From Candidatus Poribacteria bacterium (GTDB lineage: Bacteria; Poribacteria; WGA-4E; WGA-3G), in the NCBI GenBank assembly GCA_022825665.1, contig JAJDWI010000058.1, forward strand, positions 1-61,923: a stretch of DNA of 61,923 nucleotides. The letters run 5' to 3'. The position numbers were made by a program, and so were the translations under genes. A model generated the notes under the pieces. The model had not been told where the DNA came from. It saw only the letters and a program-made list of their open reading frames with translations, and searched no databases. Position 1 is the first letter of the stretch. Every line of letters starts with the position of its first letter. Shown here piece after piece: positions 41,263-49,374 of this stretch.

Positions 41263-41413
41263 TGAGCATCTACCGCAAAGACTAAAGCAAGTTTTGCTAA
41301 TGTCCATCTTTCTCCAGAATTTGACCGTATATACATATCAAGGAGATTGTAAAACAGGACGAGGTTACTTTGACAGTTCAGGTGTAACTTGTAAACGTTT
41401 AATTTCCTCTTGA
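41246..41413 (+). pseudogene. Truncated DUF5615 PIN-like toxin remnant
   Basis: An ATG overlapping the end of the DUF433 gene opens MRVLLDEHLPQRLK, the classical first strand and helix of DUF5615 toxins with the acidic active-site Asp/Glu. After about 20 codons the resemblance stops, and from 41333 the frame runs through the 42-bp repeat and ends at 41411-41413, giving 55 codons instead of the usual 110-120. The later acidic residues needed for RNase activity are missing, so the toxin is dead. Confidence 0.75.
41333..41374. repeat. 42-bp perfect direct repeat, copy 2
   Basis: This is the exact second copy of 40870-40911. Read on the minus strand it supplies the last two codons and the stop of the Uma2-type gene, so both adjacent reading frames use it. 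Confidence 0.9.
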
Positions 41414-42051
41414 AGTCGAACAACTTCTGCCTCAGCTGTCTCAGCTCTTTCCTCCGCTGATTGTAACCACTCCTCTGTGTCAGGATTATATACACCAAAA
41501 GTCTCATCCTGCAAATGGATTGTCAAGTTCAACGTCTCAGCGAAAAACCCTCCATCAGAACTTTGAGGGATCTCAATATACTCCCCATCAACAAGCCGAA
41601 ATCCCATCAAATAAGATGGCAAATAACGTCTTTCTGCATCATAGAGGAAGTATTCCGATACTCCAATTTTGGCGTATAAATCCACTTTTTTATTTAAATC
41701 ATCTCGGTAGGTGCCTTTACTTGAGAATTCCATTACAAAGTCAGGTGGTTTTCCCTCTTCCCATACTTTATAGGTGCGGCGTCGTTTTTTGCCGATACCG
41801 AAAGTTACAAGGATATCGGGTGAAACAGATTCTTTAGGGAATCCTTCTTTATAGTACATCATGATATTGCCAGAGACATAAACATTTGGCTTTTCAGCGA
41901 AATATGCTTTAAGGATATGCCGCATTCGGATTATTTCGTCTATATGTAGGTCAGTTTCAGCCATAGGTTTTCCATCCGATTCGGGATATATTATATCTGC
42001 TGAATCTGTTGGCGCGTAAGGGAGGGTGCGTGTATTTAAGTCAGGTCCCAT
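41365..42051 (-). CDS. Uma2/DUF820-family nuclease-like protein
   Basis: The 228-residue protein has the PD-(D/E)xK-like Uma2 pattern: EIIRMRHILKAYFAEKPNVYVSGN, SPDILVTFGIGKKRR, PDFVMEFSSKGTYRDDLNKK and VDLYAKIGVSEYFLYD. A C-terminal coiled coil (AEERAETAEAEVVRLQEEIK) is common in bacteria with many copies. The family is abundant in cyanobacteria, planctomycetes and Poribacteria, with unknown function; members are often called putative restriction endonucleases. GGAG precedes the ATG. The stop codon lies within the 42-bp repeat. Confidence 0.88.
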   Translation of the reverse strand: MGPDLNTRTLPYAPTDSADIIYPESDGKPMAETDLHIDEIIRMRHILKAYFAEKPNVYVSGNIMMYYKEGFPKESVSPDILVTFGIGKKRRRTYKVWEEGKPPDFVMEFSSKGTYRDDLNKKVDLYAKIGVSEYFLYDAERRYLPSYLMGFRLVDGEYIEIPQSSDGGFFAETLNLTIHLQDETFGVYNPDTEEWLQSAEERAETAEAEVVRLQEEIKRLQVTPELSK

Positions 42052-42984: not shown

Positions 42985-43046
42985 CTAAAATGCCCTTTCC
43001 CTATGCGTGTATGTAAGTGGAATTTCTGACAAGGAAACGCGTGCGA

Positions 43047-43457
43047 TTACAAATTACTCGCAACCTTAATCCGATTTTGTGCGCGGGCGAGGGCTGCCTC
43101 TGCGCTGGGACGATTCAGGTCAGGGGATTCTTCGGCGAGTTGTTCTTTGGCACGTTCAAGGGCACTTTCAGCACGCACAACGTCAATTTCCGCTGCCCAT
43201 TCCGCTGTTTCAACTAATACAGTGACACCAGTGCGGAGCACTTCAAATACTCCACCACTTGTTGCCATGGATCGCAGGGCATCCGATGATTCGTTGATAC
43301 GGATTTCACCAACATCTAATGCTGTAAGAAAAGGGATGTGACCATATAGAATCTGAAAGTTGCCTTCCACACCTGGTGCTTGAACGCTAGTCACATCACC
43401 TTCATATATCAGTTTTTCCGGTGATCGAATTTCAAGGTGAAAACTTCTGCTCTGCAT
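43047..43457 (-). CDS. atpC: ATP synthase epsilon subunit
   Basis: The 136-residue protein has the N-terminal beta-sandwich (FHLEIRSPEKLIYEGDVTSVQAPG; GNFQILYGHIPFLTALDVGEIRI) and the two C-terminal helices (RAESALERAKEQL; ALARAQNRIKVAS). It joins the rotor stalk to the c-ring and inhibits hydrolysis. It is the last gene of the operon. A partial copy of its 3' end sits at 42221-42358. Confidence 0.95.
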   Translation of the reverse strand: MQSRSFHLEIRSPEKLIYEGDVTSVQAPGVEGNFQILYGHIPFLTALDVGEIRINESSDALRSMATSGGVFEVLRTGVTVLVETAEWAAEIDVVRAESALERAKEQLAEESPDLNRPSAEAALARAQNRIKVASNL

Positions 43458-43508
43458 AAGATTATATCTCTTTCTGAAAGCCGATTGCTGTTAGCCGACA
43501 GCCAACTA

Positions 43509-44930
<1,422 letters not shown>

Positions 44931-44964
44931 TTATAAATGAGAAAACACTTATTGATTGTAATTA

Positions 44965-45864
44965 TTAACCTGCCATCAGGTTTGCTATGTTTGCTCTCAT
45001 CGGTTTAAGTGTTCCATTATGTAAATAATTAGCAAATCTTTGGAATTGCCATTCTAAGTTGGAAATTTGTCTTGCCCAGCCCCGTAAAGGTTTAGAGCAT
45101 GTGGTATCATTAGCTAACGTCTGGAGTGTTGGTATATTTTCGCCAATCCGATCAGCAATCTCGTTATAAAAATTACGCCTGGATTCCTTATATTCACTAC
45201 GTTCGTAAATTGGAAAATTCATCTGATATTTTCGTTTGATTGTCTGCGCCCAATATCGTAAGTGTTGACCGTTTACGATGTAAGGATCAACCCTCACTAA
45301 ATTGACATATTGGGTTGAGAATGCACCAATTGGAACTGTACAACTAATTTCAGGATCTTGGGCTTTTTGCTTTCCAAATTCTTGTTTCAACTGATTTCTG
45401 AACTTAATATAAGTGCTTTGAGGGACACCAGAATTAATTGAGTGCATAAATAAACGATTAATATCTTCAACGGTATCAAGTGCTTGAATTTCTCGGTTAA
45501 AGCCCTTTGCACCAGCGGACCAAAGACAGACAGCGACATCAGATGCTTCTATTAATGCCAAGGGGTTCATTTCAAATAGGACCGGACCATAAGGATTTGG
45601 AACGCTATTCGCTCCTTGTGCAAACCCTCTGCCAAAATCCGATAAATTTACAAAGACCTTATCCCAAACCTTATTTTCTAAGTCTATATCATCGGTATCA
45701 AAGGTAGTAAATTGGGCTTGTCTGCTTTGTAACAACGCCCGTGAGGGAATACCGCCAAGAGCGAGATATGAATCAAAATCAATTAGTTGACATGCATGAT
45801 ATAGTGTAACGTGTCTCTTTTGTAAGAGATTAACCAAAGATTGAATCTCATTACCGCTTATCAT
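44965..45864 (-). CDS. Unknown protein inserted in the ATP synthase operon, possible ADP-ribosyltransferase-like fold
   Basis: This 299-residue protein is of no family I can name. The N-terminal half has VTLYHACQLIDFDSYLALGG, then IPSRALLQ, VFVNLSDFGRGFAQGAN, PYGPVLFEMNP and GFNREIQALD. A Tyr-His after a first strand, a Gly-Gly-Ile-x-Ser-Arg turn and a late Glu resemble the layout of DarT-like or other ART-fold toxins, but the match is only by eye. The C-terminal third is helical and basic (NLEWQFQRFANYLHNGTLKP). Its ATG overlaps the stop of the next gene upstream (ATGA), so the two are coupled. Its position between atpG and atpD is abnormal. Confidence 0.7.
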   Translation of the reverse strand: MISGNEIQSLVNLLQKRHVTLYHACQLIDFDSYLALGGIPSRALLQSRQAQFTTFDTDDIDLENKVWDKVFVNLSDFGRGFAQGANSVPNPYGPVLFEMNPLALIEASDVAVCLWSAGAKGFNREIQALDTVEDINRLFMHSINSGVPQSTYIKFRNQLKQEFGKQKAQDPEISCTVPIGAFSTQYVNLVRVDPYIVNGQHLRYWAQTIKRKYQMNFPIYERSEYKESRRNFYNEIADRIGENIPTLQTLANDTTCSKPLRGWARQISNLEWQFQRFANYLHNGTLKPMRANIANLMAG

Positions 45865-46814
45865 GCTTTTGTTCCTTCGGATGGTGAGAACAAACTAAAT
45901 TGTTGACTATCGGTAATGTTATTCCTTAGACCACTGTTATTGGCATAAAGGTGATGTTCAAGTCGTTCTGATTCATCACGTAGCAATTCAATAAAACGTG
46001 GCCGTGCTTCTGTCCATATTGATTCTGCCTCGTCAAGTGAAAGTCCTACTTTGCTAAGCCTCCATTCCACCTCTCTGTCCCACCATCGTGATGGCACTTG
46101 GTTATAAACGATACCACTTTCACAATAAAAACTAACCCAATTCAGTTGACGCCAAGGGAATCCCATCTCTTTTGCAAGTTTACTAATTACGGCTTTTCCT
46201 TGAGGAGTATGTCGATCCAACGCAATCCAAAACGGAAATTTTGATTCCTTTTTAATTCCTAACTGTAATTTCGGAAAACCATCCATTACAACTAAATATG
46301 CTGAAGCCTGTATAAATGCTCTATCCCAAGGCCATCCGCCTTTTCGATACGCTACAGAAGTTCGTTCTACGAAACGTTTAGTCATATCACATGAGCACTG
46401 AGAAGAAATCCATTTCCAATAATTATCTTTATTCTTAATTGCAGCACAAATATGTTTTATGTATGTATCATCATCTGAACCACTCAATACAGAATCGTCT
46501 CCTTCTGAGAGCGCGTAAGCAAGAGAACCAAGTCCAGCCGCATCTTTAAATTTTATGTATCGTGCTGCCTGACTGAGAATCTCTTGTGATGCTGTTTGTT
46601 GCATATCTCTTTTTTGGGGTAATTCCCATTCTCCCATGAGAGGCCAGCATTCTTCCGCGATGATAACACCCACCCGTTGTTTTAACCAATTAATATCTCC
46701 GATTTCATAGAGATGGTTTACTACTTTAACAACAAGATCGGATTCCCCACGGCGCACCGCTTTTTGAAGTAAGGATCTACAATCTTGGTGAGTATTTGGA
46801 TTCGCTTTACGCAT
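45861..46814 (-). CDS. Unknown protein inserted in the ATP synthase operon, N-terminus like clamp-loader collar domains
   Basis: In this 317-residue protein, residues about 10-60 (CRSLLQKAVRRGESDLVVKV, then VGVIIAEECWPLMGEW) resemble the helical C-terminal domain of RarA/MgsA-type clamp-loader-like ATPases (SALQKAIRRGD, later RRLxxIASEDxG), but no ATPase motifs are present. The rest has KGGWPWDRAFIQASAYLVV, FPFWIALDRHTPQGKAVI and a Trp-rich segment (VPSRWWDREVEWRLS). It is coupled by a four-base overlap to the following gene. Together they form a two-gene cassette, plausibly a toxin-antitoxin or defence pair, in the atp operon. The function is unproven. Confidence 0.7.
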   Translation of the reverse strand: MRKANPNTHQDCRSLLQKAVRRGESDLVVKVVNHLYEIGDINWLKQRVGVIIAEECWPLMGEWELPQKRDMQQTASQEILSQAARYIKFKDAAGLGSLAYALSEGDDSVLSGSDDDTYIKHICAAIKNKDNYWKWISSQCSCDMTKRFVERTSVAYRKGGWPWDRAFIQASAYLVVMDGFPKLQLGIKKESKFPFWIALDRHTPQGKAVISKLAKEMGFPWRQLNWVSFYCESGIVYNQVPSRWWDREVEWRLSKVGLSLDEAESIWTEARPRFIELLRDESERLEHHLYANNSGLRNNITDSQQFSLFSPSEGTKA

Positions 46815-46882
46815 CTATCTAACCTATTGTCAAAGATTGAGTAAGGACTATTAAGCTGTGTATGTTTACATTTTGTTTGTTG

Positions 46883-47761
46883 TTAACCTTCTAACGCGGC
46901 TGCGCCACTGACTATTTCTGAAATTTCTGTTGTAATCTGTGTCTGACGTGCTCTATTGCGTTGTAGGACTAATTCATCAATGAGTTCTTTTGCTTTTTGT
47001 GTTGCGTTTTCCATCGCTGCCATTCGTGCTGCTTGCTCTGCTGCATTTGAGTCTAAAAGCACTTTCCACATTTGCATATTTAAATCTTTATGGAGTAACA
47101 TTTCGAATAACTCCACCTGTCCCGGTTCATAGATATAGTCAAGGAATAAAGAATCCCCTTCTGGTTCTATCGGTTCTAAAGGCAACAACTGTTCTACAAG
47201 CACCGTCTGAAGAATAGCAGATTTGAAGTTGTTATATATAACCTCAACCTTGTCAATCGTTTTGTCAACATAGAGATGTTCAAACTCTTGGACAACATCA
47301 ACAGCGGTCTGAAATTCAAGTTGACGGAATATATTGATATAAGAGTCCGTTATGTCGTAACCACGTCTCTCAAAATGCTCTTGAGTCCGTCTACCTATAC
47401 AGATAAGTGTTACATCTGCCCCAGTTTCTTCGTAGTGCTGTATACGTTCAGTTGTAGTGCGTATGACATTACTGTTGAAACTACCACATAGCCCGCGATC
47501 TCCCGAAACAGAGATGATACAGACATGTTTGACTTCGCGCTCCTCAAGTAGCGGATGTGTTAATGCCTCTTCCTCAACGTTCATCTGCGAAATAAGATGA
47601 CCGAGAATAGTATTAAGTTTTTCTGCATAAGGACGCGTTGCCATGATATTCTCTTGGGCACGTCGGAGCCGTGCTGCAGCAACGACTCGCATCGCATCTG
47701 TAACTTGCTCAATATTCTTAATGCTGGCGATACGCCGCCGTATTTCTCGTAACGTAGCCAT
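46883..47761 (-). CDS. atpG: ATP synthase gamma subunit
   Basis: The 292-residue central stalk subunit has the N-terminal helix (TLREIRRRIASIKNIEQVTDAMRVVAAARLRRAQ), the HVCIISVSGDRGLCGSFNSNV core, and the C-terminal helix (ARMAAMENATQKAKELIDEL, then RNRARQTQITTEISEIVSGA). It transmits rotation between the c-ring and the F1 head. It lies two bases after atpA. A 68-base gap separates it from the inserted cassette downstream. Confidence 0.97.
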   Translation of the reverse strand: MATLREIRRRIASIKNIEQVTDAMRVVAAARLRRAQENIMATRPYAEKLNTILGHLISQMNVEEEALTHPLLEEREVKHVCIISVSGDRGLCGSFNSNVIRTTTERIQHYEETGADVTLICIGRRTQEHFERRGYDITDSYINIFRQLEFQTAVDVVQEFEHLYVDKTIDKVEVIYNNFKSAILQTVLVEQLLPLEPIEPEGDSLFLDYIYEPGQVELFEMLLHKDLNMQMWKVLLDSNAAEQAARMAAMENATQKAKELIDELVLQRNRARQTQITTEISEIVSGAAALEG

Positions 47762-47763
47762 TG

Positions 47764-49374
47764 TTATTCACCTTCAGGTGCTGTCTCGGTATCTGTCTGT
47801 TCTTCCTCTGCGGAGGATTCTTCGGATGACACCGCTTCTATTTGTGCTGATGGTGTCTCACTCCAATTTTCCATGAATGCCTTTACAGCAGCATGCATAG
47901 TTTCAAGTAATTCATCACCTAACAGACCGGTTTCTGCGATTTCAGCAAGGAGTTCTGCATGATTCCTGTCAAGATATTGTAGGAATTCAGACTCAAATCT
48001 CGCAACTTCCGATTCAGGAACTTCGTCTAAATAGCCATTTGTGCCACAGAAGATTGAAGCGACTTCCCGCTCAACAGGCATCGGTTCATATTGCGGTTGT
48101 TTCAGCAATTCCACGAGACGTGTCCCTCGTGTAAGAAGAGATTGTGTTGCCGCATCCAAATCAGATCCAAATTGTGCGAAAGCAGCAACTTCTCGGAAAC
48201 TCGCAAGATCAAGCTTCAGGGTCCCCGCAACTTCATCCGATTTCATCGCCTTAACTTGTGCATCCCCTCCCACTCGCGATACAGATGTACCGACATCTAT
48301 GGCAGGTCTAACACCTTGGTTAAACAGATCCGTAGTCAAATATATCTGTCCATCGGTAATAGAGATAACATTCGTTGGGATATAAGTCGTCAAATCCCCT
48401 TCAAAAATTTCAATAATCGGCAACGCAGTCAGAGAACCGCCACCCAAGTCATCGCTAAGTTTTGCTGCGCGTTCTAACAAACGTGAGTGTAGATAGAACA
48501 CATCACCCGGATATGCCTCACGACCCGGAGGTCTACGGGAAAGCAGTGACATCTGTCGGTATGCCCACGCATGTTTCGTCAAGTCATCGTAGATGATAAG
48601 TGCGTGTTTACCGTTATGACAGAAGTATTCCGCCATTGATGTTCCTGAATAAGGAGCGAGATATTGTAGCGGAGAGGGCGCGCTTGCTGGAGCAGAAACA
48701 ATGGTGGTATATTCCAGTGCATTATGTTCACGAAGCGTATTCGCTACTTGCGCCAACGTAGAACCTTTTTGACCGATAGCAACATAGATACAATAAACAT
48801 CTGTGTTCTTTTGACTAAGTATAGCGTCTATAGCAATCGCAGTTTTTCCTGTTCGTCGGTCACCGATGATGAGTTCTCGTTGTCCTCTACCAATTGGTGT
48901 TAAACTGTCAATAGCTTTTAAGCCGGTATAAAGTGGTTCACTGACGGGTTGACGTTGAACGATACCTAACCCTTTCTGTTCCACGGGGAGTCTATGTTCA
49001 GTTTGGATATCTCCCAACCCATCAATAGGTTGTCCAAGTGCATCAACGATTCGTCCGAGGAGTGCTTCACCTACTGGGACTTCTGGAAGCCTACCCGTGC
49101 GTTTGACAGTGTCGCCTTCATGTATAAGTTGGTCTTCTCCAAACAGCACACAACCGACGTTGTCTTCTTCAAGGTTGAAAGCGATTCCGTAAATATCGTT
49201 CGGGAATTCAATCATTTCACTTGCCATCGCGTTAGCAAGTCCATGAACCCGCGCGATACCATCGCCTACCTCCAGCACAGTACCGGAGTCATAGACATCC
49301 ACGTCCTGTTCAAATTGTTGGAGTTGTTGTTTAAGGATATTTGATATTTCGTCCGGACGGACTTCTCTTGCCAT
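47764..49374 (-). CDS. atpA: ATP synthase alpha subunit
   Basis: The 536-residue protein has Walker [55 protein letters not shown] and the [18 protein letters not shown] region ([15 protein letters not shown]). It is the non-catalytic nucleotide-binding subunit of F1. A Ser/Glu/Thr-rich acidic tail of about 25 residues after the usual C-terminus is an extra. It lies between atpH (175 bases away, with a repeat between) and atpG. Confidence 0.98.

Follow-up and report, generated by a model that had tools for sequence, protein, structure and literature searches.

A gene pair in the atp operon of Poribacteria combines an ATPase-less relative of the RarA collar domain with a candidate effector

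RarA is a widely conserved fork-repair protein. In its full-length form, the C-terminal (collar) domain (MgsA_C, PF12002) is accompanied by an AAA+ ATPase domain with Walker motifs. Two described two-gene systems are also relevant to the locus reported here. DarTG modules combine DarT (PF14487) with a macrodomain or NADAR antitoxin, DarG (PMC5179494, PMC11543638). SocAB is a clamp-targeting toxin-antitoxin system of Caulobacter (Aakre et al. 2013) and, as far as the citing passage in PMC10305079 describes it, is an earlier example of a two-gene conflict system with a link to the sliding clamp. According to that passage the SocAB toxin itself binds the clamp, whereas in the pair described below a clamp-type motif resides on the other protein; the comparison is a working one and implies no homology. 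With DarTG, this pair shares a two-gene make-up, a patchy and mobile distribution, and a weak profile similarity between its second protein, B, and DarT. By the features compared at the sequence level, it belongs neither to DarTG nor to full-length RarA: B has no PF14487 match, the first protein, A, resembles the RarA collar and matches neither macrodomain nor NADAR antitoxins, and searches of Pfam, NCBIfam and PDB found no ATPase domain in A.

The window analyzed here is a 61,923-nucleotide stretch of DNA (contig JAJDWI010000058.1, assembly GCA_022825665.1) from a Candidatus Poribacteria bacterium. Its minus strand reads atpF-atpH-atpA-atpG-A-B-atpD-atpC, with the following features:

46883-47761, minus strand: atpG, flank upstream of A-B (open reading frame and homologues)
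45861-46814, minus strand: gene A, 317 aa, ATPase-less and RarA-collar-like (open reading frame, purifying selection, relatives in 10 of 85 genomes and in phages)
46644-46814, minus strand: A residues 1-57, matching the start of the RarA C-terminal (collar) domain
46194-46217, minus strand: A residues 200-207, family motif D-x-HT-x-x-GK, common to the phage homologues
45888-45902, minus strand: A residues 305-309, QFSLF, clamp-binding-type motif Q[LF]xLF in the disordered tail
45861-45864, minus strand: ATGA overlap of the A stop codon (TGA) and the B start codon (ATG)
44965-45864, minus strand: gene B, 299 aa, candidate effector, weakly DarT-like (open reading frame, purifying selection, always with A)
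45739-45801, minus strand: B residues 22-42, YHA...GGIPSR, in register with the first conserved DarT motif
45574-45591, minus strand: B residues 92-97, YGPVLF, conserved with Salinivibrio relatives
45331-45354, minus strand: B residues 171-178, PEISCTVP, near the DarT catalytic strand (AECLVP)
43509-44918, minus strand: atpD, flank downstream of A-B (open reading frame and homologues)

The initial annotation had described two genes with a four-base overlap between atpG and atpD, and both open reading frames are indeed found there, separated from atpG by 68 bp and from atpD by 46 bp. Several genomes carry intact homologues of A and B, and dN/dS ranges from 0.06 to 0.26 in every pair with estimable dS, indicating purifying selection on both. 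We therefore regard A and B as genuine genes. A scan of the minus strand from 43000 to 48000 detected no terminator-like site, so cotranscription with the atp genes on the same strand is possible; three copies of the pair are located outside the atp operon. Pfam, NCBIfam, PADLOC and PHROGs named neither protein convincingly, and the literature searched describes no system of similar make-up. A-B is a real accessory gene pair that carries no library name. A putative endonuclease gene of the Uma2 family (PF05685) lies just downstream of the atp operon in the window (41365-42051).

The insertion had seemed surprising on the premise that this atp gene order is almost never broken. Within the phylum that premise does not hold for atpG-atpD: 43 of the 58 resolved junctions are longer than 350 bp and 15 are shorter. 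Interruption of this junction is common, and the position of A-B is less surprising than it first appeared. Among the longer junctions, 38 contain a DJC28_CD gene (DUF1992, DnaJC28-domain), 5 a cupin gene, and three both; a few junctions hold other genes, encoding an EthD-like repeat protein or exported proteins. Examples of this recurrent insertion place include L026:11473-11958, L034, L081 and L082. Short, empty junctions occur mainly in the genus of the window, where they often measure 47-50 bp and retain the ribosome-binding sequence of atpD. A-B follows atpG directly in this genus (window and G009; the G016 contig ends upstream of A), and in a second genus it follows the DJC28 gene or, in G065, the remnant of that gene. 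Inspection of the junction sequences revealed no target-site duplication. The atp operon of Poribacteria is thus a recurrent landing site for unrelated genes, and to lie within this housekeeping operon does not establish a housekeeping function.

Of the 85 genomes of the phylum, 10 contain both genes, and none contains just one. Seven genomes carry them between atpG and atpD (the window, G009, G016, G065, G066, G072 and G074; in G016 and G065 a contig end is reached on one side of the copy), and three carry them elsewhere (G018, G023 and G076). The initial annotation had suggested looking for the pair at other sites and in the company of defence genes. One of the three non-atp copies, that of G018, does lie in a defence-type island (L024:4938-15274), while the majority of copies lie outside such islands. 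In this island, HsdR_N proteins are encoded together with an HD/dGTPase-like gene that overlaps a gene for a protein resembling the C-terminal region of DarG; A-B comes next, then the genes for a GmrSD_N protein and for an N6_N4 methylase that carries an HNH domain.

In AU tests covering eight genomes, the trees of A and B exclude one another (p = 1e-9 and 8e-8), so the two genes have separate histories and recombine between lineages. Comparison of the window with G016 shows 0.90-0.94 identity for most of A, a sharp step at the A/B boundary to 0.71-0.77 for B, and 0.85-0.92 for atpD. In several genome pairs, though not in all, dS of the cassette is lower than that of atpG: 0.49 (A) and 0.21 (B) against 1.15 between the window and G009, and 0.38 (A) against 2.13 between G065 and G072, but 0.66 (A) against 0.54 between G074 and G072. 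Two genomes contain an intact A next to a broken B, by a frameshift in G066 and an internal deletion in G072; both are draft genomes, in which the breaks may be sequencing or assembly errors. Two adjacent, co-inherited genes of patchy and mobile distribution are what toxin-antitoxin or defence pairs look like, and to this extent the earlier idea of a toxin or defence function fits the data.

The proposal that A resembles the collar of RarA-type proteins without any ATPase is supported. The profile of A found only three matches in the PDB, all of them weak (E = 0.3-0.95) and all of them RarA C-domains, and its profile-profile score against Poribacteria RarA was equalled by 1 of 200 column shuffles. 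Homologues of A are encoded by the Stenotrophomonas phages Summit, DLP_5 and DLP_3 and by the Vibrio phage KarBoss. This makes the link to RarA firmer, because the Summit protein matches RarA structures (E = 3.7e-4) as well as RarA genes (E = 8e-4 to 3e-3). A can be aligned with the phage proteins from residue 1 to about residue 267, nearly end to end in the case of the uncharacterized Summit, DLP_3 and DLP_5 proteins, and 26 columns are invariant among phage and bacterial members, including D-x-HT-x-x-GK and a later F-x-x-E-x-G. An unannotated Nonomuraea sequence is also matched by a phage homologue. The AlphaFold model of A is all-helical (mean pLDDT 65). A Foldseek search of a viral library with this model returned six proteins at probabilities of 0.90-1.00 followed by a sharp drop to 0.11; most of the six come from giant viruses, including one with the name RarA, and the E-values are modest (0.005-0.29). 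The same search against the PDB gave only noise. Taken from sequence and model comparison, the firmest new result is that A represents an ATPase-less family related to the C-terminal domain of RarA. It differs from RarA itself in scoring below the Pfam cut-off for PF12002 and in containing the additional conserved D-x-HT-x-x-GK region, which has no RarA counterpart. Searches for PF12002 were negative in all 59 genomes of the family to which the window belongs and positive in all 12 order relatives tested; the absence appears as a lineage-wide loss. Since all 59 family genomes are without a detectable RarA, A is unlikely to act on that protein in its host, and we rejected the idea that A poisons host RarA.

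In all seven atp-located copies, the disordered C-terminal tail of A ends with the motif Q[LF]xLF, which fits the clamp-binding consensus QL[S/D]LF or QxxLF (PMC12309361). Identity is 81% over this motif and 38-45% over the rest of the tail. The motif arises by chance with a frequency of 0.0003-0.0024 per shuffled tail, a figure to be read with the caveat that the copies are not independent. Neither the three non-atp copies nor the phage homologues have it, and the latter also lack a B-like gene within about 4 kb. The motif is therefore not a universal part of the mechanism.

The second protein is harder to place. Profile alignment (hhalign) of B with Poribacteria DarT (PF14487) gave a score of 23.3 that none of 200 column shuffles equalled and one of 26.0 that 1 of 200 equalled, and brought YHACQLIDFDSYLALGGIPSR of B into register with YYITHIDNLPSILxxGILSH of DarT. 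The absolute hhalign probability is low (3-6%), and the score of a control alignment of A with DarT was equalled by only 6 of 200 of its own shuffles (the 3 percent level); the resemblance of B to DarT is therefore weak and suggestive only. B matched nothing in Pfam, NCBIfam or the PDB, none of the eight B proteins reached the PF14487 cut-off in Pfam, and the AlphaFold model was uninformative (pLDDT 43). The ART- or DarT-like start noted by the initial annotation finds weak support in the shuffle-tested scores and in the register with the first DarT motif, against these database and model results. The region containing REIQ, which had been listed as a further ART feature, is missing from the Salinivibrio relatives. 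We also withdrew Glu172 as a candidate catalytic residue: near the DarT catalytic strand the alignment, itself weak, puts Ser174 into the Glu column, and the Salinivibrio relatives have no Glu in this column either. True DarT was detected in 42 of the 85 Poribacteria genomes by the same family search that gave no match to B. It often occurs in several copies per genome, many of them fused to or followed in frame by a DarG-like part, and one is encoded in the genome of the window (G000:C18:7316-7882).

Outside Poribacteria, the searches turned up just two relatives of B: a Salinivibrio plasmid protein (WP_269598743.1; pairwise E = 5e-8 over residues 8-99) and a Salinivibrio viral-contig protein (IMGVR_UViG_2871219911) that is 80% identical to it. 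Both are homologous to approximately the first 100 residues of B; they differ from B in having 236 aa and no A-like partner nearby. The plasmid gene sits among transposases, and the viral-contig gene lies directly downstream of a dGTPase gene. On that contig (L140:3402-6447), the dGTPase, the B-like protein and a small membrane protein are encoded in a row that looks like a phage-borne defence cassette. The helical C-terminal half of B weakly matches the 273-position PADLOC profile "DrmD" (best E = 0.0006), at residues 183-273 in L025 and 203-266 in L023 on the same diagonal; we do not read this match as DISARM. A match of B on a Cronobacter plasmid was dropped, being antisense to an annotated gene, and a weak match to the B profile in G003 proved to be a sigma-factor-like open reading frame.

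How might such a pair work? Its presence inside the atp operon of seven genomes could point to a housekeeping or regulatory partner of ATP synthase. However, most relatives with the same operon have no A-B, three genomes carry it elsewhere, and the junction accepts unrelated genes. We rejected this role on distribution and consider it extremely improbable. It is also very unlikely that A is a replication-repair factor replacing the missing RarA, with B as an accessory: the kinship of A with RarA in a family in which all 59 genomes are RarA-less would suit such a substitute, but 49 of these genomes contain no A, and A has no ATPase. A classical addiction pair would consist of B as toxin and A as the antitoxin that binds it, the replication fork being uninvolved and Q[LF]xLF incidental. 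The translational overlap of the two genes, their mobility and the loss of B next to a retained A in two genomes all agree with this proposal. Against it speak the size and very high conservation of A, its kinship with a replication-fork protein, its stand-alone phage homologues, and a Q[LF]xLF motif that varies less than the surrounding tail; on balance we find it rather doubtful.

A separate question is whether B is an ADP-ribosyltransferase at all. That it is some other undescribed effector or DNA-associated protein, and its likeness to DarT a matter of chance, has about an even chance of being correct. The empty HMM and PDB searches, the serine in the catalytic column of B and the non-Glu residues there in its Salinivibrio relatives, the control alignment of A with DarT at the 3 percent level, and the unexplained "DrmD" match all favour a different identity; the DarT profile scores, higher than those of 199-200 of 200 shuffles and aligned at the first DarT motif, speak against coincidence.

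We consider it fairly likely that A-B is a conflict module. The reading we favour, at a probability of roughly 0.4, is that of a mobile conflict pair (toxin-antitoxin or phage defence) in which A, presumably docked at the replication clamp, would position or restrain the effector B. The argument for it draws on the strict co-occurrence in 10 of 85 genomes, the three non-atp sites including one in a defence-type island, the tree conflict, the identity step, the low cassette dS in several pairs, the broken B genes next to intact A, and the B-like gene adjoining a dGTPase in Salinivibrio. It also draws on the RarA-collar relation of A, its Q[LF]xLF tail and the weak DarT relation of B. Against the favoured reading stand the missing HMM or PDB match and assignable catalytic Glu of B, the copies of A that have no motif, the possible assembly errors behind the broken B genes, and the location of most copies outside defence islands. 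In this proposed mechanism, the cassette would take up sites that tolerate it, with the atpG-atpD junction as the commonest. Its tail and collar-like domain would bring A to the sliding clamp or the replication fork, and B would be an effector, possibly a DarT-kind ADP-ribosyltransferase acting on nucleic acid. A could then position B, hold it in check until a phage or some other disturbance affects replication, or do both.

A more specific version, which we regard as unlikely, would make A-B a new class of conflict system, in which an ATPase-less RarA-collar protein, docked on the sliding clamp of host or phage, brings a divergent DarT-like enzyme to the fork or licenses it there, in lineages that have lost RarA. 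Should the favoured reading be right, A-B would tie the replication-fork and clamp machinery to a toxin or defence effector, and the linking protein, from a family for which we found no function here, would have its kin in phages and, by predicted fold, in giant viruses.
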